The translations under genes and the position numbers were made by a program. Shown here one piece after another: positions 8,659-32,842 of a stretch of DNA of 64,000 nt (position 1 is its first letter; every line of letters starts with the position of its first letter). The stretch spans positions 62,001 through 126,000 of the forward strand of contig NZ_JAJAQC010000005.1 of assembly GCF_027604915.1 (NCBI RefSeq), read 5' to 3'. This DNA comes from Streptomonospora mangrovi. GTDB lineage: Bacteria; Actinomycetota; Actinomycetes; Streptosporangiales; Streptosporangiaceae. A model generated the notes under the pieces. It had not been told where the DNA came from. It searched no databases and was given only the letters and a program-made list of their open reading frames with translations.

Positions 8659-8695
8659 GTATCCTTTTCCGGGCATTCGTGTTGAACGGTTCACT

Positions 8696-8735
8696 CCCCG
8701 GCTCTGGTGTGCCAGCACCAAGGCCGGGGTTTTTT
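8696..8735 (+). terminator. T-tailed hairpin directly upstream of the excisionase-like gene
   Basis: Arms 8696-8709 (CCCCGGCTCTGGTG) and 8716-8729 (CACCAAGGCCGGGG) pair over 14 positions with two mismatches around a six-base loop, and six T residues follow at 8730-8735. By form it is an intrinsic terminator for plus-strand transcription, although no plus-strand gene precedes it. Read on the minus strand it is a hairpin in the 5' untranslated region, about 38 bases before the start at 8658. Confidence 0.6.
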
Positions 8736-9204
8736 CGTTCTCGGGCAGAAGAGCGACGAAGGAACGTAGCTCATTCGTACTTGAGAAGGCGAAAACACCG
8801 GCGGGAAAATCCCGCGTTTCCTGAGGTGGGTCCGGGCGAGCGGGCGGGCGCCTGGGGCGCTGCGCGCGGCCGAGGAGTCGTGAATCGCGTGCTCCTCCAG
8901 CCCGGTACAGCGAGATTACAGGATGATCACCGGCGGAGCAATCCACCGTCTGCCGTACCCAGCAGGCATCTTGATCAACTCCGCTGAAACGCGCTTTCGT
9001 GCACGTCAGCGCACAATCCCGCCGTTTCAACGGCGCACCGACCCGGGGAAATTCCGGTTTGCGATGAAGATGCCCGAAGCTACTCCCACGTCACCACAAA
9101 AACGGACAGGGGAGGTGAAATTTTTTCGGTGAAATGAATTCAATTACCGCTGCGGACGGCGTGTCGCGGCGGTCGCGGTCGGCCCTCACCGTCGCGGGCG
9201 GCCC
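8736..9204. other. Relatively AT-rich intergenic region
   Basis: About 470 bases with no supportable gene. The composition is clearly less GC-rich than the surrounding genes, for example around 8740-8820 and 9050-9150 where AAATTTTTTCGG and GAATTCAATTACC occur. It probably holds the promoter of the minus-strand excisionase-like gene. Short open frames here lack actinomycete codon bias and were not called. Confidence 0.45.
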
Positions 9205-9555
9205 TCACGGGCGGCCGGTGGCACGGATCCGCCGCACGATCCGCTCGGCGCCCTCCTCGTCGGCGCCGGTGGCGTCGCGCACCGCGCCGACCGCCTCGTT
9301 GCCGCGCCCCTCGGCGAGCAGCGCGCGCACCCGCTCCAGCGCATCCGCCGACAGCGGCACCGCCGGCGCACCCGGCTCCTCCAGCAGGGTGTAGCCGCCC
9401 GGAGGCGGCACGGCCCCGGCCTCCACGGCCGGCGCGGCGGCCCCGCCCTCCTCGACCGCGGCGGCCGAGCCCCGCAGCCGAGCGGTCACCCAGGTCCCCA
9501 GCCCCAGCACGGCCACCGCGCCCAGCAGGGCCAGCAGCATCATCAGCAGGCTCAT
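9205..9555 (-). CDS. Membrane-anchored protein with ribosomal L7/L12-like C-terminal domain
   Basis: Encodes 116 residues from ATG 9555. An N-terminal hydrophobic helix (SLLMMLLALLGAVAVLGLG) anchors the protein, followed by a flexible Ala/Gly/Pro linker (about residues 28-65). The last 45 residues (LSADALERVRALLAEGRGNE then AVGAVRDATGADEEGAERIV) have the helix-turn-helix-strand spacing of the L7/L12 C-terminal domain, which contacts translation factors on the ribosome. Such membrane-linked L7/L12-like proteins are seen in actinomycetes, with unknown role. It is preceded on the same strand by tRNA-Thr and its terminator. Confidence 0.65.
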   Translation of the reverse strand: MSLLMMLLALLGAVAVLGLGTWVTARLRGSAAAVEEGGAAAPAVEAGAVPPPGGYTLLEEPGAPAVPLSADALERVRALLAEGRGNEAVGAVRDATGADEEGAERIVRRIRATGRP

Positions 9556-21354: not shown

Positions 21355-22170
21355 TCAGGCCGAGCCGCGGGCCCGGCGGCGGACCAGCAGGAGGATCCCG
21401 GCGCCGGCCGCCACGGCGGCCAGGGCGCCGGCCACCAGCGGCAGCACGCCGGCGCCGGTGAGCGGGAGCGCGTCGCCGCCGGCGGCCGGGCCGCTCGCGG
21501 CGGGCGCGGCACCGTCGTCGTCGGCGGCGGGGTCGACGCGGGCGGCGGCGGGCGAGGCGGGGTCGGGGGCGCCGGCCTCCCCCTTGGCCTCGGGCGGCGC
21601 GCCGGCCGGACCGGACGGGCTGGGCGAGGGCGAGGCGGGCGAGTCCTGCGGGACCGTGGGGTCCTCGGGGCCGGCCTGCTCCTGGGCCGGGGGCTGCGCC
21701 GCGCCCGCCGCGCCGTCGGAGCATGAGGCGCCGGCGGTGCCCAGCACGGCCACCGCGTTGCCGCAGACGTTGACGGGGACGTCGCCGTCGACGACGGCCT
21801 GGTTGCCGCCCAGGATCGACCCGTTTCCGCTGGTGGTGGTGTCGCCGTCGCCCTCGTGGACGTGGGCTCCGGAGCCGGAGCCGTGGCCGGCGCCGCCGCC
21901 GGTGCCGTGGCCGCCGTAGCCGTCGGGGTGGCCGGACTGGCCGGAGCCGGTGGAGGCCCCGCCGCCCTGGCACTGGGCGCCGGCGGCGCCGAGCACGGCC
22001 ACCGCGTTGCCGCAGATGTTCACCGGCACGTCGGCGTCGGCGCCGAGCTGGTTTCCCCCTCCGATGGAGCCGTTGCCGCTCGTGGTGGTGTCGGCGTGGC
22101 TGATGGGAGCCACGGAGAAGAGGCCGGCCGCGATGAGGGCGGCGAACATCGTCATGCTTTTCCGGGACAT
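21355..22170 (-). CDS. Two-repeat chaplin with LPLTG sortase-anchoring signal
   Basis: Encodes 271 residues from ATG 22170, preceded by AAGGAT. A signal peptide (residues 1-27, ...PISHADT) is followed by two chaplin domains (about 29-68 and 111-151), each with SGNGSIxGGNQ and VPVNxCGNAVAVLG, and paired Cys at 53/67 and 136/150, which would form the disulfides known from chaplins. A Gly/His-rich linker joins the two domains. A long Pro/Ala/Ser spacer ends in the sorting signal LPLTG, a hydrophobic helix (VLPLVAGALAAVAAGAGILLLV) and a basic RRRARGSA tail. This is the layout of the long, sortase-anchored chaplins (ChpA-C type). No sortase gene is in the window. Confidence 0.9.
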   Translation of the reverse strand: MSRKSMTMFAALIAAGLFSVAPISHADTTTSGNGSIGGGNQLGADADVPVNICGNAVAVLGAAGAQCQGGGASTGSGQSGHPDGYGGHGTGGGAGHGSGSGAHVHEGDGDTTTSGNGSILGGNQAVVDGDVPVNVCGNAVAVLGTAGASCSDGAAGAAQPPAQEQAGPEDPTVPQDSPASPSPSPSGPAGAPPEAKGEAGAPDPASPAAARVDPAADDDGAAPAASGPAAGGDALPLTGAGVLPLVAGALAAVAAGAGILLLVRRRARGSA

Positions 22171-25403: not shown

Positions 25404-25488
25404 GTCCGGGTGGCGGAATAGGTAGACGCGCTAGCTTGAGGTGCTAGTGCCCGTTAAGGGCATGGGGGTTCAAGTCCCCCCTCGGACA
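25404..25488 (+). tRNA. tRNA-Leu (anticodon GAG)
   Basis: The 85-base sequence forms a type II tRNA: acceptor GTCCGGG/CTCGGAC, D-arm, anticodon stem CTAGC/GCTAG with loop TTGAGGT (anticodon GAG, codons CUC/CUU), a long variable arm GTGCCCGTTAAGGGCAT, and T-arm GGGGG/CCCCC with loop TTCAAGT. Upstream TATGGT at about 25363 may be its -10. Confidence 0.95.
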
Positions 25489-25494
25489 CCGTCT

Positions 25495-25728: not shown

Positions 25729-26595
25729 TCACGTCGGGTGGATGTCCCGCATCAGGGCGGCGTAGCCGTCCTCCAGGGTGGCGGCGACGGGGACCGCGCC
25801 CGGGGGCGGCTCGTCGGCGACCACCCGGTAGCGCATGCCCTCGGGGGTCGCGGCGGCGTTGGTGACCGCCGCTCCGGTGGGCTGGGGACCGTCGGTGTCG
25901 ACAAGGTAGGTCCGGTCTTGGGCGTAAGCGGTGAGCCCGGATGTGGCGCCTGTGTAGACCACGCGGCCCGCCGCCAGTACGGCGACCCGAGGACAGGTCT
26001 GCGCCACGTCGTCCAGGACGTGTGTCGACAGCACCACGGTGCACCGCTCCCCCAACCCGGCGAGCAGCGAGCGGAACCGCATGCGCTCCTCCGGGTCCAG
26101 TCCGGCGGTGGGCTCGTCCACGATCACCAGCCGGGGATCACCCAGCAGAGCCTGGGCGATCCCCACCCGGCGCCGCATACCGCCGGAGAAGCCGCCGAGA
26201 CGCAGATCGGCGCTGTCGGCCAGCCCGACCCGGTCGAGCAGGCGGGCCACGTCCGCGCGACGGGTCCGCGCGTCGTCGACGCCCTTGAGGAGGGCGATGT
26301 AGTCGAGGAACTCGCGGGCGCTGAGATCCGGGTACAGGTCGAGGTGCTGCGGGAGGTAGCCGAGGACCCGTCTGGTGAAAGCGCGTCCGGCGCGGGTGCG
26401 GAGATCGTGCCCGCCCACGACGAGGGCGCCCGACGACGGCCGCAGCACTCCCGCGAGCAGGCGCATGAGCGTGGTCTTGCCGGCCCCGTTCGGGCCGAGC
26501 AGGCCGGTCATGCCGGCGCCGAACTCCAGGTCCACCGCGTCCAGCACCGTGCGGCGGCCGAAGGTCTTGGTCAGACCGGTGATGGCGACGTCCAT
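25729..26595 (-). CDS. ABC transporter ATPase (last gene of the sigma/ABC operon)
   Basis: Encodes 288 residues from ATG 26595, with GAGGTGA overlapping the stop of the previous gene. Walker A GPNGAGKTT, Q-loop LGYLPQHLD, signature FSGGMRRRVGIAQ, Walker B LVIVDEPTAGLD and the switch His in VVLSTHVLD are intact, so it should hydrolyse ATP. The C-terminal 70 residues form an extra domain (DTDGPQPTGAAVTNAAATPE) of the bacitracin/multidrug exporter type. With the membrane proteins encoded just upstream it would make an exporter. Substrate unknown. It is the last of seven tightly packed genes, 6 bases after the permease. Confidence 0.9.
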   Translation of the reverse strand: MDVAITGLTKTFGRRTVLDAVDLEFGAGMTGLLGPNGAGKTTLMRLLAGVLRPSSGALVVGGHDLRTRAGRAFTRRVLGYLPQHLDLYPDLSAREFLDYIALLKGVDDARTRRADVARLLDRVGLADSADLRLGGFSGGMRRRVGIAQALLGDPRLVIVDEPTAGLDPEERMRFRSLLAGLGERCTVVLSTHVLDDVAQTCPRVAVLAAGRVVYTGATSGLTAYAQDRTYLVDTDGPQPTGAAVTNAAATPEGMRYRVVADEPPPGAVPVAATLEDGYAALMRDIHPT

Positions 26596-26601
26596 CCCGG
26601 G

Positions 26602-27387
26602 TCACCTCTTTCCCATCATGATCAGGCGCGCTCCGCCGATGAGCAGAGCGGTGGAAAGCAGTACACACGCGAGGTTCGCCAGCCCGGTCACCGTGCCGTC
26701 GGCGGCCGGGCTGAGCCAGCCGACCTGGCCGTTCCCCGCCCAGGACGGCGTGGTTCCGAACCACGCCTGGGCCGGGTACTCACCGGAGGGGACCAGGAGG
26801 GTGCCGACCGGCGTGGGCGCCCACAGCAGCCGGGGGTTCCACGCCACCGCCCAGAACCAGGCGGGCACCACGAAAGCCCGGGCCAGCGGTGCCGGGAGGA
26901 CGAGTGCCAGCACCCCGGCGAGGGCGGTGATCCACGCGCATGCCGGGAGGAGTACGACCAGGAAGGCGAGCGCCGTCCACGGCAGCGCCGCGGCATCGCC
27001 GGTGCGGACAGCGGCGGCCGCCCCGAGGACCGCGGTCACCGGCAGGACGGGGAGGAGCGCCACGGCGAGCCCGCCGGCGAGGACCGCGCCTATCCGCGCC
27101 GCGCCCCGCAGCGGCACGCTGTCGAGGAGGTCGCCCAGACCGGCCGCCGTCCCGCGGCGCAGGCGGTCGGCCAGCACCACGCCCACCCCGACCGGGACGA
27201 CGAGGGTCAACGCCTCGGCCACCGCTCCGGCGTTGAGCCGGGCGGACTCCGCGCCGTCCAGGCGCCCCATGCCGACGAGCAGGGCCAGCGCGGCCATAGG
27301 GACCATGCCGATCCACACGCCCCGGCCGCGCGCCGCCATACGGGCCTCGTAGCACGCGACCGCCAGCAGCGCCGCCACGCCCTTCAC
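26602..27387 (-). CDS. ABC-2 type permease
   Basis: Encodes 261 residues from GTG 27387, which overlaps the preceding stop by four bases (GTGA), with GAGGAGGGG just before. About six hydrophobic segments are seen (including VWIGMVPMAALALLVG, LVVPVGVGVVLAD, VLAGGLAVALLPVLPVT, FLVVLLPACAWITALAG, NLACVLLSTALLIGGA). The first cytoplasmic loop contains YEARMAARGRGVW, typical of ABC-2 permeases. It would pair with the ATPase encoded just downstream. The neighbours suggest an exporter complex of several different membrane chains. Substrate unknown. Confidence 0.78.
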   Translation of the reverse strand: MKGVAALLAVACYEARMAARGRGVWIGMVPMAALALLVGMGRLDGAESARLNAGAVAEALTLVVPVGVGVVLADRLRRGTAAGLGDLLDSVPLRGAARIGAVLAGGLAVALLPVLPVTAVLGAAAAVRTGDAAALPWTALAFLVVLLPACAWITALAGVLALVLPAPLARAFVVPAWFWAVAWNPRLLWAPTPVGTLLVPSGEYPAQAWFGTTPSWAGNGQVGWLSPAADGTVTGLANLACVLLSTALLIGGARLIMMGKR

Positions 27388-27980
27388 CGCCCCTCCTCGA
27401 CAACGCGCTCGGGTACCGCCCGCGGACCCAGCGCCGTCGCGATCAGCACCACCCCGAGCGCGGCGGCCGCCGGCCGGGCGACGGCGGGGGGCACGTGGAC
27501 CGCCCAGAACAGGGCGTAGCCGAGCCACACCGCGACCGCCGCCCCCGACGCCGCCGCGGGCGAGTGCCGGCGGGCCCACACCCGCAGCGCGACCCCGCTC
27601 AGCAGCGCGGCAGGACACAGCGCGGCGGCCGCGGAGGCCGCGGCCTCAGGCGATCCCGCGCCGAGGGCGAGCGCCGCACCCACGAGCGCGGCCGCGACCA
27701 CGGCCAGCCGGCGCGCCAGCAGCACCGGGAAGGGCACCGGGAGGGACAGGTGGAGTTCGAGCGCGCGGGTCCGCGCGAGTACGGCGATGACCGCCAGGGA
27801 CGCGAGCCCCGCCAGCCCCGTCGCCGCGGCGGCGGCCAGGGCCGGCTGCGCCGCCGGTGGCGAGCCGGCGGTCACCGCGCCCCCGGCGAGCCCGGCGGCG
27901 AGCAGGGCCGGGGCGGCCATGCCGCAGTGGCGCGCCTCGTACCGCAGCAGCGCCGGCGGGACCAAGGTGCGCGCGCTCAT
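27384..27980 (-). CDS. Six-helix membrane protein of the ABC operon
   Basis: Encodes 198 residues from ATG 27980, overlapping the stop of the anti-sigma/permease gene by four bases (ATGA), so translation is coupled. It has about six hydrophobic segments in a short chain (ALLAAGLAGGAVTA, ATGLAGLASLAVIAVLA, LAVVAAALVGAALALGAG, ASAAAALCPAALLSGVAL, AVAVWLGYALFWAVHV, AALGVVLIATALG). After the first segment, the loop carries the RTRALELHLSLPVP motif, which recalls the cytoplasmic loop of ABC-2 permeases. It is smaller than standard permeases and may be a half-unit that pairs with the products on either side. Confidence 0.7.
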   Translation of the reverse strand: MSARTLVPPALLRYEARHCGMAAPALLAAGLAGGAVTAGSPPAAQPALAAAAATGLAGLASLAVIAVLARTRALELHLSLPVPFPVLLARRLAVVAAALVGAALALGAGSPEAAASAAAALCPAALLSGVALRVWARRHSPAAASGAAVAVWLGYALFWAVHVPPAVARPAAAALGVVLIATALGPRAVPERVVEEGR

Positions 27981-28876
27981 ACACCGCCCCGGAGGACGCG
28001 CGCCGGATACCCGGTCAGCAGCGCGGCGCACCCGATCAGCAGGAGGGACGCCGCCAGCGTTCCGGCGTTCGTCGTCCACACCGCGGCGAGCACGGCGGTG
28101 AACCGCCCCGGGACGGGCAGGACGCCCCCGACGGCCACCACCGCCCCGATGACCCACCCGCATCCTCCCAGCACCGCCCCCGCCGCCGGGGACTGCCACA
28201 CCGCGCCGAACGCGGCGAGTGCGGCCGTGAGCAGGGCCGGCCCCAGCCACGACGCGACAAGTTGGGGGGCGTCCGCAGCGCCCTCCGCCACCCGGCCGAC
28301 GGCGGCCGTGAGCACCAGGGCGGCGGCCAGGTCGACGGCCACGACGAGCGCCAGCCGGCACAGCCACACCGCGACGGGCGGCACCGGCAGGGAGTGGAGC
28401 AGTTCGCTGCGGGGATCGCGGCGCGGTTCGCACACGGCGAGGACCCCGGCCGTCAGGAGCAGGGTGACGCCGGGCCCCAGCAGCGGCTCCGCGATCGGCT
28501 CCGCGCGCCAGGCCGCCGCCAGCAGCAGGACGAAGCCCAAGGCGGTCAGCGGCCACAGCGAGCGGGGCACCAGACGCGCCTGCCGCCACACCAGCGCGGC
28601 GGTCAGCCGCCAGGACGCCGAAGCGCTCCACGCCGCGACGGGAGCCGGATCGGCGGCGGGGCGGTGCAGCTCGGGCAGGACGAGGGCGTCGAAGGAGGGG
28701 ACCGCCGCGGGGGCGTTCTCCGCGTCGAGTGCGGCCGCCGCACCGCGCAGCGCCGACGCCGCCGCCACCCGCCTCCGGCACCGCGCGCACCGCACGAGGT
28801 GCCGCGCCGCACGGGCGTCCGGGGGTGCGCCGGGGCGTCCGACCGCCATGATCCGCTCGTCATCGAGGTGTCCCAT
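27977..28876 (-). CDS. Zinc anti-sigma (ZAS) domain fused to a six-span ABC-2-like membrane protein
   Basis: Encodes 299 residues from ATG 28876, which overlaps the sigma gene's end by 17 bases. Residues 1-50 carry the ZAS pattern H-x3-C-x2-C (HLVRCARC) with an upstream helix (DDERIMAVG), the class that binds and silences ECF sigma factors through a zinc site. After about residue 90 there are six hydrophobic segments, with a DPRSELLHSLPVPP loop like that in its operon neighbours, so this is an ABC-2-type membrane domain rather than the usual single anchor. The gene order sigma then anti-sigma and the overlap fit a partner pair. Such a fusion could couple transport state to release of sigma. 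Inference only. Confidence 0.75.
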   Translation of the reverse strand: MGHLDDERIMAVGRPGAPPDARAARHLVRCARCRRRVAAASALRGAAAALDAENAPAAVPSFDALVLPELHRPAADPAPVAAWSASASWRLTAALVWRQARLVPRSLWPLTALGFVLLLAAAWRAEPIAEPLLGPGVTLLLTAGVLAVCEPRRDPRSELLHSLPVPPVAVWLCRLALVVAVDLAAALVLTAAVGRVAEGAADAPQLVASWLGPALLTAALAAFGAVWQSPAAGAVLGGCGWVIGAVVAVGGVLPVPGRFTAVLAAVWTTNAGTLAASLLLIGCAALLTGYPARVLRGGV

Positions 28877-29486
28877 GCCCCTCCTCCTCTTCCTCCGTCA
28901 GCAGCCTGATCAGGCGGGCACGGGCGTGCGCCATCCTGCTCTTGACGGTGCCGACCGGCACACCGAGCACATCGGCGATGTCGCGGTAGGGCAGTTCGTC
29001 GACGAGCGCGAGCCCGAGCACCTCGCGCGAGCGCGCCGGTAGCCGGCGAACGGCGGCCAGGATCGCATCGTGCCCGATCGTCGCGAGGACCTGCTCCTCG
29101 ACGTCGACGCCGCCGTCCACGGGCTCCGGCGCGTCGTCGAGGTCGACGGTCGGGCGGGCGACGCGGCGCAGCCGGTCGTGGGCACGACGCCGGGTGATTC
29201 CCAGCAGCCAGACCCGCACGGCGGACTCCCCCCGGTAGCCGGCCGCCGACCGCCAGGCCGCCAGCCACGCCTCCTGGAGGATCTCCTCGGCCGTGCCGGT
29301 GTCGGAGGTGAGCCGGCGCAGGAGCCGCAGCATGGCCGCGGCGTGGCGCCCGTACAGGACGCGCAGGGCGTGCTCGTCCCCGTCGGCGACACGGGCGAGC
29401 AGCACCCGGTCGTCGGCTTCCACCGCGGACTCCTCCCTTCGACGGTGCCGTGTCAGCGTGCCGCGTGCGGTGGTGTGGGCGGTCAT
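28860..29486 (-). CDS. ECF sigma factor
   Basis: Encodes 208 residues from ATG 29486; a later in-frame GTG (VEADDRVLLARV) could also start it. Region 2 is ALRVLYGRHAAAMLRLLRRL then TAEEILQEAWLAAWR, the core-binding and -10-recognition helices. Region 4 is ILAAVRRLPARSREVLGLAL then YRDIADVLGVPVGTVKSRMA, the helix-turn-helix that reads the -35. The linker is acidic and lacks extra domains, so it belongs to a small ECF type. It lies 14 bases after the upstream ATPase and overlaps the gene for its probable anti-sigma factor, all in one operon. It is expected to control its own operon in answer to a membrane or transport signal. Confidence 0.9.
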   Translation of the reverse strand: MTAHTTARGTLTRHRRREESAVEADDRVLLARVADGDEHALRVLYGRHAAAMLRLLRRLTSDTGTAEEILQEAWLAAWRSAAGYRGESAVRVWLLGITRRRAHDRLRRVARPTVDLDDAPEPVDGGVDVEEQVLATIGHDAILAAVRRLPARSREVLGLALVDELPYRDIADVLGVPVGTVKSRMAHARARLIRLLTEEEEEGHGTPR

Positions 29487-29500
29487 CGGTGTCCGCCTGT

Positions 29501-30199
29501 TCAGCCGCGGTCCAGCAGCGCGAAGAACCCCTTCTCCAGGTCACCGTCCCAAGCGAGACCGTCCAGGGGGCCGGCGAAGCGCACGGTGCCTCCGACGAGG
29601 ACGGTGACCTCGTCGCAGGTCTGCGCGATCTGGTCGAGGTGGTGGCTGGAGACCAGCACCGCCACCCCGTCGGCGGCGAGCCGGCGCAGCAGCGCCCTCA
29701 TGTCGCGCATGCCCACCGGGTCGAGGCCGTTGGTGGGCTCGTCCAGGACGAGCAGCCGGGGCCGCGCCAGCAGGGTGATGGCGATCCCCAGGCGCCACCG
29801 CATTCCCAGCGAGTATGCCGACACCCGGCGGTCGGCGTGGTCGGCCATGCCGACGTCCGCCAGCAGGCGGGGGATCAGGGCCGGGTCGGCACCGCGCAGG
29901 CGGGCGTGCAGGCGCAGGTGTTCGACGGCGGTGTAGCGGGACCACAGCCCGGGTTGGGTGACCAGCGCTCCGACGTCGCGCAGGACGCCGCGGGTGAAGG
30001 GGGCTCCGAACAGCTCCAGGGAGCCCGAGTCGGGGCGCGACAGCCCGGTGATGGTCTTGAGCAGCGTGGTCTTACCGGCCCCGTTGGGCCCGAGGAGGCC
30101 GTGGACGCGGCCCGTCTCCACCCGCAGATCCACTCCGGCCAGGGCCTGGGTGCGACCCAGCCGCTTGGTGAGGCCGCTGACGCGTACGGCGGTGCCCAT
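29501..30199 (-). CDS. ABC transporter ATPase (lantibiotic-immunity-like)
   Basis: Encodes 232 residues from ATG 30199, abutting the permease stop without a gap. Walker A GPNGAGKTT, Walker B LLVLDEPTNGLDP and switch His VLVSSHHLD are present. The signature is YSLGMRWRLGIA instead of LSGGQ, the form found in lantibiotic self-protection exporters (MutF/SpaF/EpiF type). With the upstream permease it is expected to export or shield against a peptide or hydrophobic compound. No lantibiotic precursor or modification gene is nearby, so the substrate remains open. Confidence 0.88.
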   Translation of the reverse strand: MGTAVRVSGLTKRLGRTQALAGVDLRVETGRVHGLLGPNGAGKTTLLKTITGLSRPDSGSLELFGAPFTRGVLRDVGALVTQPGLWSRYTAVEHLRLHARLRGADPALIPRLLADVGMADHADRRVSAYSLGMRWRLGIAITLLARPRLLVLDEPTNGLDPVGMRDMRALLRRLAADGVAVLVSSHHLDQIAQTCDEVTVLVGGTVRFAGPLDGLAWDGDLEKGFFALLDRG

Positions 30200-31003
30200 T
30201 CACAGCTCCTTGCGGTTGACGTGGCGGGCGCCGATGGCCAGCAGTACCGCGGTCGACGCCAGGGAGAGAGCGACGGCGAGGGGGATCACCCCGGTGTCGG
30301 CCAGCGGGTCGCCGGGGGGCAGGGGGACCCCGTTGGCGCGGATCCCGGCGAGGGGCACGACCACCGTCATGGGCCAGCCCATCGGCACCGCCCACCAGAC
30401 GCTCTTGTCGGCGAGCAGGGCACCGAACATCATCCCGGCGACGCCGACGCACACCGCCGGGGCGAAGCCCCACACCTCGGCGACGAGCACGCACAGCGCC
30501 ACCGACGCCGATGCGGAGGCCCAGGGGACCAGGACCGCCAGCGCGGTCGGCCCGACGGTGTGCGGCCCCTCCAGAGCCACCCCGATCGGGGCGAGCAGCG
30601 CCAGCAGCAGGACTGCCTGGGCGAGGCCGAGTACGGTCAGGGCGGCGAACCTGCCGACCAGGTAGCGGTGCCGGGGCACCGCGTATCCGTAGAGGACGGC
30701 CCGCGCGCTCTCGTCCTGGCGCACCGCCATCGACGCGTACAGCGCGGCCGCCATGGGCAAAAGGACGCCCCAGAACATCACGACGACCCGGAACCAGGTG
30801 CTCCACACCTGCCCCGCCTGCCCCTCAGGCGAGGCGACCGCGATCACGCCGAGCGGGAGCACCAGGGCGAACGGGAGCCCCACGGTGAACCAGGCCGGGA
30901 AGCCGCGTCGCAACCGGGCGAGTTCGGTTGCGGCGACCGCGGCAAGCGACGGATCGTCGCGACGCGGGCGCCGCGCCCGAGCGGAGGGTGGAACGGCCGT
31001 CAT
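30200..31003 (-). CDS. ABC-2 permease (lantibiotic-immunity MutE/EpiE-like), first gene of operon
   Basis: Encodes 267 residues from ATG 31003, with GAGGAGAG seven bases upstream. A basic N terminus is followed by RRGFPAWFTVGLPFALVLPLG, then about six hydrophobic segments, including VVVMFWGVLLPMAAALYA and the MAVRQDESARAVLYGYAVPR cytoplasmic loop. The EELxxR-like loop and spacing resemble the immunity permeases MutE/EpiE. It is the first of seven genes that run to 25729 with overlaps or gaps under 15 bases, and pairs most directly with the ATPase gene that follows. Upstream 31004-31117 holds a possible ECF-type promoter. Confidence 0.82.
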   Translation of the reverse strand: MTAVPPSARARRPRRDDPSLAAVAATELARLRRGFPAWFTVGLPFALVLPLGVIAVASPEGQAGQVWSTWFRVVVMFWGVLLPMAAALYASMAVRQDESARAVLYGYAVPRHRYLVGRFAALTVLGLAQAVLLLALLAPIGVALEGPHTVGPTALAVLVPWASASASVALCVLVAEVWGFAPAVCVGVAGMMFGALLADKSVWWAVPMGWPMTVVVPLAGIRANGVPLPPGDPLADTGVIPLAVALSLASTAVLLAIGARHVNRKEL

Positions 31004-31041: not shown

Positions 31042-31071
31042 TACGTAGCGGTCGAGAGCCCGCCCGGTTCA
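31042..31071 (-). promoter_or_regulatory. Possible ECF-sigma-type promoter of the seven-gene operon
   Basis: On the minus strand TGAACC (31071-31066) is followed after 17 bases by CTACGT (31048-31043). This resembles the GAAC / CGT pattern of ECF promoters and would fit autoregulation by the operon's sigma factor. The match is short and unproven. Confidence 0.3.
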
Positions 31072-31357: not shown

Positions 31358-32842
31358 TCACGGCCGGATGCGGGCGCGCGCGGCGGCCACGGCCGCGGCG
31401 ACTCGTACCGCGCCCAGGACGGCGCAGGCGGCCGCGATTCCGAGGAGCAGGCACCCCACGTCGGGCGTCCACAGCAGCAGGTCCCCCAGATCGACCCCGG
31501 CGGCGGCGGGCAGCCCCACCACCGCCGCGCCGCCCACCACCGCGCATCCCGCCAGCCACAGCGCCGTCTCAGCGGCCGCGCGGGCGGGCCGGGCCGGGAC
31601 CGGGCGGCGGGTGAGGATCCGCACGGCGGTTCTGAGGCTGAGTACCGCGACCGTGATGATCACCGCGCACAGGCCGGCCAGCAGAGCGGGGTAGCCCAGA
31701 CCGTTCCCGGCCGGTGCGGGCTCCCCGCCGGCGAGGACACGGGCCGCGCCCAGCCCGGTGGCGAGCAAAGCGCCGTCCTGGAAGTATCCGTGGGCGTTCT
31801 GCACCAGCACCAGTCCGCGCTCGCGCTCGGGCAGCAGCACCACCATGGCTTGGTATCCGCTGACCGCGCCGCCGTGCCACACGGTGGTGGTGCCGAGGTC
31901 GGCGTTGCGCTCGTCGACCCGCCATCCCAGCCCGTAGGAGTAGGTCGGGCTCAGCCGCGCCTGCGCGGTGTGCATGCGCGCCAGGGTCTCCCGCTCCAGC
32001 GGCGCGGCACCGTCGCCGGCCCGGCCGTTGAGATGCAGGGCGGCGAAGCGCGCCAAGTCGGTGACCGGGCCGCCGATGTAGCCGTAGCTGGGGCCGGCGG
32101 GGTCGTAGGGGGCGTCGGTGAAGGCCGTGGGTTGGCCGAACACGTAGCGGTTGCCGGGTGGGACGGCGGCCGCCTGGGCGGGGGTGGTCACGGCGTCGGC
32201 CATGCCCAGGGGGCCGAGCACGCGCTCGTTCAGGACGTCGGTGAAGGTGCGGCCGGTGGCGGCCTCCACCACCGCGCCCAGCAGCAGGTAGTTGGCGCTG
32301 CTGTAGTGGTGGCGGGCGCCGGGGGGATCGATGGGGTGGACCTGGTCGAGGTCGGCCACCGCCTGGGTGTAGGCGTCGGCGGGCGGCGCGGTGCGGTCGG
32401 TGATGCCGGTGTCCTCGGGCAGGCCGCTGGTCTGGGCGAGCAGGTGGCGCAGGGTGATGCCGCCTCCGGAGCCGTCGGCCAGTTCGAAGTCGGGCAGGTG
32501 GCTGCGCACGGGCTCGTCCAGGTCCAGGACGCCCTCCTCGGCCAGGTCCATGACGAGGGTGGCGGTGATCGGTTTGGCCACCGAGCCCCACAGCAGCGGG
32601 GTGGCGGTCTCCATCGGAGCGCCGTCGCCGTCGCGGCCCAGGGCCGCCGTGTGCTCGGTGCCCTCCGGGCCGATCACGGCGTAGGCCAGACCGGGGACGC
32701 CGGTGTCGGCCATGCGTTGGCGCAGGTAGTCGGCGACCTCCTGATCGGGGGCGGCGGGCGGGGCGGCGGCGGCCGCGCCGGGCGCGGCGAGGACCACCGC
32801 GACGGCGGTGGCGGCGCGGAGCAGAAGGGGAAGCGGACGCAC
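31358..32842 (-). CDS. Secreted/membrane serine hydrolase of beta-lactamase (class C/EstB-like) fold
   Basis: Encodes 494 residues from ATG 32842. A signal peptide (residues 1-27) precedes a penicillin-binding-protein-like catalytic domain with S87-x-x-K90 (GSVAKP) and the tyrosine motif HHY180SSANYLLLG, where the usual YxN Asn is Ser. The third box is HGGAVSGYQ, corresponding to the HxG/KTG triad. After about residue 380 three hydrophobic segments follow, which anchor the protein in the membrane. Such proteins are esterases or D-amino-acid peptidases, and true beta-lactamase activity is not implied. It is divergent from a TetR regulator, with a perfect palindrome in the shared promoter region, so that regulator most likely controls it. 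Confidence 0.87.
   Translation of the reverse strand: MRPLPLLLRAATAVAVVLAAPGAAAAAPPAAPDQEVADYLRQRMADTGVPGLAYAVIGPEGTEHTAALGRDGDGAPMETATPLLWGSVAKPITATLVMDLAEEGVLDLDEPVRSHLPDFELADGSGGGITLRHLLAQTSGLPEDTGITDRTAPPADAYTQAVADLDQVHPIDPPGARHHYSSANYLLLGAVVEAATGRTFTDVLNERVLGPLGMADAVTTPAQAAAVPPGNRYVFGQPTAFTDAPYDPAGPSYGYIGGPVTDLARFAALHLNGRAGDGAAPLERETLARMHTAQARLSPTYSYGLGWRVDERNADLGTTTVWHGGAVSGYQAMVVLLPERERGLVLVQNAHGYFQDGALLATGLGAARVLAGGEPAPAGNGLGYPALLAGLCAVIITVAVLSLRTAVRILTRRPVPARPARAAAETALWLAGCAVVGGAAVVGLPAAAGVDLGDLLLWTPDVGCLLLGIAAACAVLGAVRVAAAVAAARARIRP

Follow-up and report, generated by a model that had tools for sequence, protein, structure and literature searches.

The question raised by this locus is how an extracytoplasmic function (ECF) sigma factor may be controlled when the protein encoded directly behind it carries both an anti-sigma-like head and a membrane domain of an ATP-binding cassette (ABC) transporter. 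The window, that is, the whole stretch of 64,000 nucleotides analysed, was taken from Streptomonospora mangrovi (contig NZ_JAJAQC010000005.1, positions 62,001 to 126,000; genome of 6.36 Mb, G000). Computational analysis of its minus strand showed seven open, contiguous genes (perm1-atp1-sigma-ZAS-ABC2-mem5-mem6-atp2, ZAS denoting zinc anti-sigma), a fusion protein behind the sigma gene whose membrane half is predicted to take an ABC-2 fold, and a promoter motif conserved in most relatives. That these genes form a transporter operon which induces itself through a sigma and anti-sigma pair is considered very probable. The full model of a self-inducing stress and immunity module, in which the ZAS head holds the sigma factor and the transporter releases it, is favoured with less assurance, and direct gating of that release by the state of the transporter is put forward tentatively. 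The features were as follows.

31042..31071, minus strand: predicted sigma-dependent promoter, TGAACC-N16-GCTACGTA (motif search)
30200..31003, minus strand: perm1, LanE/MutE-like ABC permease, 267 aa (TIGR03732, below the curated cut-off)
29501..30199, minus strand: atp1, LanF-like ATPase, 232 aa (TIGR03740, below cut-off; ATPase motifs)
28860..29423, minus strand: ECF sigma factor, 187 aa (alternative start 29486; Sigma70_r2 and Sigma70_r4_2 above cut-off)
27977..28876, minus strand: ZAS-ABC2 fusion, 299 aa (head, residues 1-72; ABC-2 domain, residues 81-291)
27384..27980, minus strand: mem5, small membrane protein, 198 aa (hhalign to the ZAS profile)
26602..27387, minus strand: mem6, ABC-2 membrane protein, 261 aa (NosY-like fold)
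25729..26595, minus strand: atp2, second ATPase, 288 aa (ATPase motifs present)

The overlaps given in a preliminary description of this DNA were all found: ATGA between ZAS and mem5, GTGA between mem5 and mem6, and 17 bases (28876-28860) between sigma and ZAS. Perm1 directly abuts atp1, and 6 bases separate mem6 from atp2. The statement that remaining gaps are shorter than 15 bases probably fails between atp1 and sigma. GTG 29423 is more likely the start of the sigma gene than ATG 29486, because the ribosome site gaagggaggag precedes it and the usual ECF N-terminus results; the gap is therefore probably 77 bases, not 14.

The Hx3Cx2C protein with six membrane spans described previously was recovered. 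The motif reads HLVRCARC (residues 26-33), with a further histidine, His3, upstream; the head is anti-sigma-like, with helix 4 at residues 62-71, and the AlphaFold2 (AF2) model places six long helices beyond residue 105. An elbow helix and a six-helix ABC-2 fold are present in the predicted structure of the membrane half. The ligands H3, H26, C30 and C33 and the coupling region residues D154, P155, R156 and E158 were invariant in 18/18 ZAS family proteins (the window's own included), the nearest named relatives being from Nocardiopsis, Streptomonospora and kin. These data support the fusion, proposed earlier, of a putative zinc-type anti-sigma-like head to an ABC-2 membrane domain. Frameshift or mis-annotation was considered as the origin of the fusion and ruled out, as the same fusion occurs in 17 other proteins. 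Zinc-type class I anti-sigma factors include RsrA, RslA and RsiW; they have in common with the ZAS protein the Hx3Cx2C motif, the three-helix bundle followed by helix 4, and the position downstream of an ECF sigma gene. Unlike them, the ZAS protein ends in a C-terminal ABC-2 domain, and such a fusion was not found described in the open-licence papers searched.

Related loci were collected by searching a 17-row ZAS profile in 297 family genomes and 394 class genomes. Matches were obtained in 90/297 and 47/394 genomes, respectively, many of them short and confined to the head. Forty-one loci were surveyed (L018-L022 and L075-L110; L095 and L110 share one genome); the window's own locus was excluded, and L010-L017 were dropped as lying on the same contigs as eight of the 41. 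The neighbourhood survey, which had been suggested as a check, returned a sigma match in 41/41 loci, and the sigma-ZAS association and the invariant zinc ligands are more than chance. An atp1 match was found in 22/41 loci and Hx3Cx2C behind the sigma gene in 27/41. In several loci of Nocardiopsis type, among them L012-L015, atp2 follows sigma-ZAS and neither mem5 nor mem6 is matched in between, an order which suggests that atp2 may be the ATPase serving the ZAS membrane domain. Mem5 is probably an ABC-2 paralogue of that domain, to judge from its alignment to the ZAS profile (hhalign E 8e-5, probability 61%). A close sequence relationship of mem6 to the same domain was rejected, as hhalign found nothing (E 0.52).

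Two relatives show unusual forms of the ZAS protein. In L091 (G026), the homologue at 8665-9529 was matched as two overlapping pieces, possibly by frameshift; this locus retains sigma, mem6, atp2, perm1 and atp1. In the Streptomyces homologue of L020 (1018-2103), a low-complexity Gly-Ala-His/Pro stretch lies between the first histidine and Hx3Cx2C. S. venezuelae RS15955 (254 aa) adjoins an ECF gene and was weighed as a possible relative lacking the head; according to PMC11256431, it is followed by a two-component system.

A de novo gapped-word search of 88 upstream regions found GAACC-N16-CTAC in 20 loci; the highest count in three reshuffled sets was 8. A loose pattern gave 73 matches in 640,753 bp and 13 in the backward control, the 73 being two patterns merged, some of them inside genes, and the control counting the patterns separately. 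When sites no more than 150 bp upstream were counted, 22 loci had one before sigma, 20 before perm1 and 15 before the mem5/mem6 unit; for that unit the listed distance to the mem6 match reaches 936 bp, and a mem5 gene between was not confirmed per locus. At least one site preceded sigma, perm1 or the mem5/mem6 unit in 33/41 loci. Relatives such as L078, L080 and L085 have separate sites before sigma and before perm1; in the window, a single site (31071-31042; 0.00 expected) heads the whole operon.

The strict form, GAACC-N15-17-GCTACGTAC, occurs once in the own genome, at the operon, and 58 times in the 297 family genomes, compared with 5 for the backward control. Of these sites, 36/58 stand ahead of a homologue of sigma, perm1 or mem5/mem6, and 1/58 precedes a small open frame adjoining the module (G066). 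All 20 genomes with a strong family match (E 1e-50 or better with the ZAS profile) carried the strict form, as did 21/277 others (Fisher p 4e-20, a value that is partly circular, the motif having been derived from the same loci, and uncorrected for kinship). More independent are strict sites before perm1 homologues away from the sigma operon, about 33 kb off in L132 and on another contig in L138; a third, in L133, stands at a contig end and may belong to the same operon cut by the assembly. Other forms were also counted in the own genome. The idea of a generic ECF promoter was set aside: the loose pattern TGAACC-N15-18-GCTAC gave 4 sites compared with 12 in the backward control, the window site alone standing out. 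GAACC-N15-17-CTACGT gave 5 sites and none in the control, and the four outside the window (L111-L114) had none of the seven operon genes within about 1.5 kb.

That the operon's own sigma factor induces it, as the preliminary description had already proposed, is well backed, because the operon promoter is common to the sigma and transporter units of relatives. The pairing of this sigma factor with this promoter is a prediction from the conserved association and from the precedent of MibX. According to PMC4973701, MibX is held by MibW and reads the consensus GAACC-N15-GCTAC, its regulon including mibX itself and the immunity transporter mibEF; an interaction of MibX and MibW in a two-hybrid assay is given in PMC4187693. 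The window holds GAACC-N16-GCTAC at 31070-31045, with a spacer one base longer than that consensus, and both N15 and N16 occur in relatives. As in the MibX regulon, the motif stands ahead of the sigma gene and of a LanEF-like transporter.

MibX/MibW (microbisporicin) and PspX/PspW (planosporicin) are likewise ECF sigma factors co-transcribed with membrane anti-sigma factors. With MibX/MibW the window operon has in common its promoter motif, the logic of its genes and a pump of LanEF type; a protein search that scored 7998 candidates listed no protein named MibW. Unlike MibX/MibW, the window operon lies outside a lantibiotic cluster as far as the PF04738 search goes, and ABC-2 proteins and a second ATPase are encoded together with its sigma factor. 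The module looks like a stand-alone relative of the switch known from lantibiotic producers. The preliminary description named no known system of exactly this layout; MibX/MibW with MibEF come nearer to it than was allowed for there.

Several results weigh against the reading of a sigma factor held by a zinc head and freed by a transporter. Those on the head are that zf-HC2 matched 3/17 family members (best E 0.051) and not the window protein, and that a profile search of the PDB ranked ribosomal eS26 above RslA (E 0.44) and RsiW (E 1.5). Foldseek gave no match at E <0.001 (best E 0.2). In the profile check suggested earlier, PF12698 (ABC2_membrane) matched 10/17 members (best E 5.2e-06), again without the window protein; none of ZAS, mem5 and mem6 had a Pfam match above cut-off. 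Furthermore, Hx3Cx2C was not found behind the sigma gene in 14/41 loci, the true gene starts of L097, L103, L104, L106 and L108, among others, not having been checked by eye. Loss of the zinc ligands had been named as refuting the idea; it occurs in these loci, yet the near family keeps the ligands throughout. The zinc-less loci are mostly the more distant ones (sigma identity 41-63%), and the helix-4 proline and the acidic D154 and E158 are kept in 8/8 aligned zinc-less proteins. It therefore looks as if the wider family can do without the zinc bundle, and its loss is not read here as a refutation. Mixed zinc and non-zinc groups are also given for other anti-sigma factors in PMC7406223.

Zinc anti-sigma heads can sense redox (PMC7406223). 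The head might accordingly respond to redox or zinc, as a sensor like RsrA, and be joined to a membrane half with an independent transport function, as the strictness of Hx3Cx2C in the near family would allow. PMC7406223 also puts the share of membrane-bound class I anti-sigma factors with the zinc motif at about 48%, from which its authors suggest a non-sensing role. In our survey a sigma match was present in 14/14 zinc-less loci and the promoter motif in 12/14 (before sigma or perm1 in L092, L093, L097, L099-L103 and L107-L110), and a sensor of this kind is judged highly improbable. The 12 may form a class of minimal or zinc-free heads. In some of them GCTACTCAC or GCTACACAC replaces GCTACGTAC in the motif.

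As to the transporter, L088 (G005, of the same genus) has sigma, ZAS and promoter but lacks perm1 and atp1, and in place of an atp2 within 4 kb it has just a 37% match at a distance of 4.8 kb; in L092 and L093, atp2 and mem6 lie on the opposite strand. L088, with sigma-ZAS and no atp2 within 4 kb, would fit an ABC-2 half that is a mere anchor, the sigma factor being freed by regulated proteolysis of the head, as with RsiW, and the transporter being co-regulated cargo. However, 34/41 loci have an ATPase like atp2 no farther than 4 kb away and on the same strand as sigma, and a full six-helix ABC-2 fold with invariant D154, P155, R156 and E158 exceeds the needs of an anchor. We regard the anchor as unlikely, though the strongest of the alternatives.

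Two small open frames flank the module in relatives, at 9313-9711 of L092 (minus strand, 132 aa) and 12017-12409 of L094 (plus strand, 130 aa). Both have a lipoprotein-like or signal-like start, a strict promoter site precedes the former, and they possibly encode an immunity lipoprotein.

As regards promoter and substrate, 8/41 loci had no motif site ahead of sigma, perm1 or mem5/mem6, 10/58 strict sites had no module gene nearby (11/58 fell outside the examined set), and no lantibiotic dehydratase (PF04738) match was found on C56, the contig of the operon. PF04738 was matched in the own genome on contigs C6 and C9 only, other lantibiotic genes not being searched one by one. This distribution, and NosY as the nearest fold to mem6, would fit an operon that exports an endogenous peptide or lipid, its sigma factor tuning the pump to load with no link to antibiotics. 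That account is given a low probability, slightly below that of the anchor: the promoter agrees with the MibX consensus, and perm1-atp1 are closest to lantibiotic immunity transporters. The NCBIfam profiles nearest to perm1 and atp1 are those of LanEF/LanFEG (MutE/EpiE and gallidermin ATPase families), as the preliminary description had surmised, but unlike those systems both proteins fall below curated cut-offs (perm1, TIGR03732, E 3e-27, 95.5 vs 145.2 bits; atp1, TIGR03740, E 2e-61, 207.4 vs 309.75 bits) and the contig lacks a dehydratase match. Walker A, Walker B, signature and H-loop are all present in atp1. To look for lantibiotic clusters beside relatives, 38 genomes were scanned with PF04738, and another 24 at E 1e-20; proximity to loci was judged by eye. 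One match lies about 6 kb from the ZAS-family locus L083 (G215, contig C21:31230-32288) and another about 25 kb from the locus of G005. PF02052 matched in 0/341 genomes, and the control for that search also matched nowhere.

In the model that is preferred, a sigma factor under transporter control, we infer that the N-terminal head of the ZAS protein would hold the ECF sigma factor at the membrane, while its ABC-2 half would have atp2 as a partner, probably joined in this genome by mem5 and mem6. When the transporter meets its substrate or stress, a conformational change would free the sigma factor, which would read TGAACC-N16-GCTACGTA and raise expression of all seven genes, those of the LanE/LanF-like pump (perm1-atp1) among them. 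The signal is probably a lantibiotic-like or other envelope-active peptide; a peptide antibiotic had been guessed at before, reasonably in view of the fit to the consensus of a lantibiotic immunity regulon in PMC4973701, where peptide binding and envelope stress are the two options for sensing by MibW.

Flux-sensing modules such as BceAB-BceRS, in which a transporter acts as the sensor that induces peptide resistance, are alike in proposed logic only; unlike them, the seven genes include no histidine kinase or response regulator, and the response would run through an ECF sigma factor. The SigY-Yxl operon of Bacillus subtilis also brings together an ECF sigma factor, an ABC transporter and small membrane regulators; there, unlike here, the small proteins proposed as regulators stand apart and are not fused.

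Around the operon, a Beta-lactamase-family (PF00144) protein is encoded upstream on the same strand (31358-32842, minus), with the predicted sigma promoter between both. A tRNA-Leu (gag) gene (25404-25490, plus) is convergent with the operon, about 240 bp off its end, and a chaplin (ChpA-C) domain protein with two chaplin-like segments by eye is encoded at 21355-22170 (minus).

A single polypeptide would then be both ABC transporter half and anti-sigma factor, its substrate-bound or ATP state gating a sigma factor without a kinase. This arrangement, together with its spread across the Actinobacteria and with MibW and PspW as possibly its best-studied though unrecognised members, is a conjecture held at somewhat less than even confidence. 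Should an ABC transporter half with an anti-sigma head prove to be the sensor, lantibiotic sensing by MibW would become directly testable by ATPase and head mutants. The promoter motif offers a handle for finding the regulon, and with it likely peptide-resistance pumps, in unannotated actinobacterial genomes.
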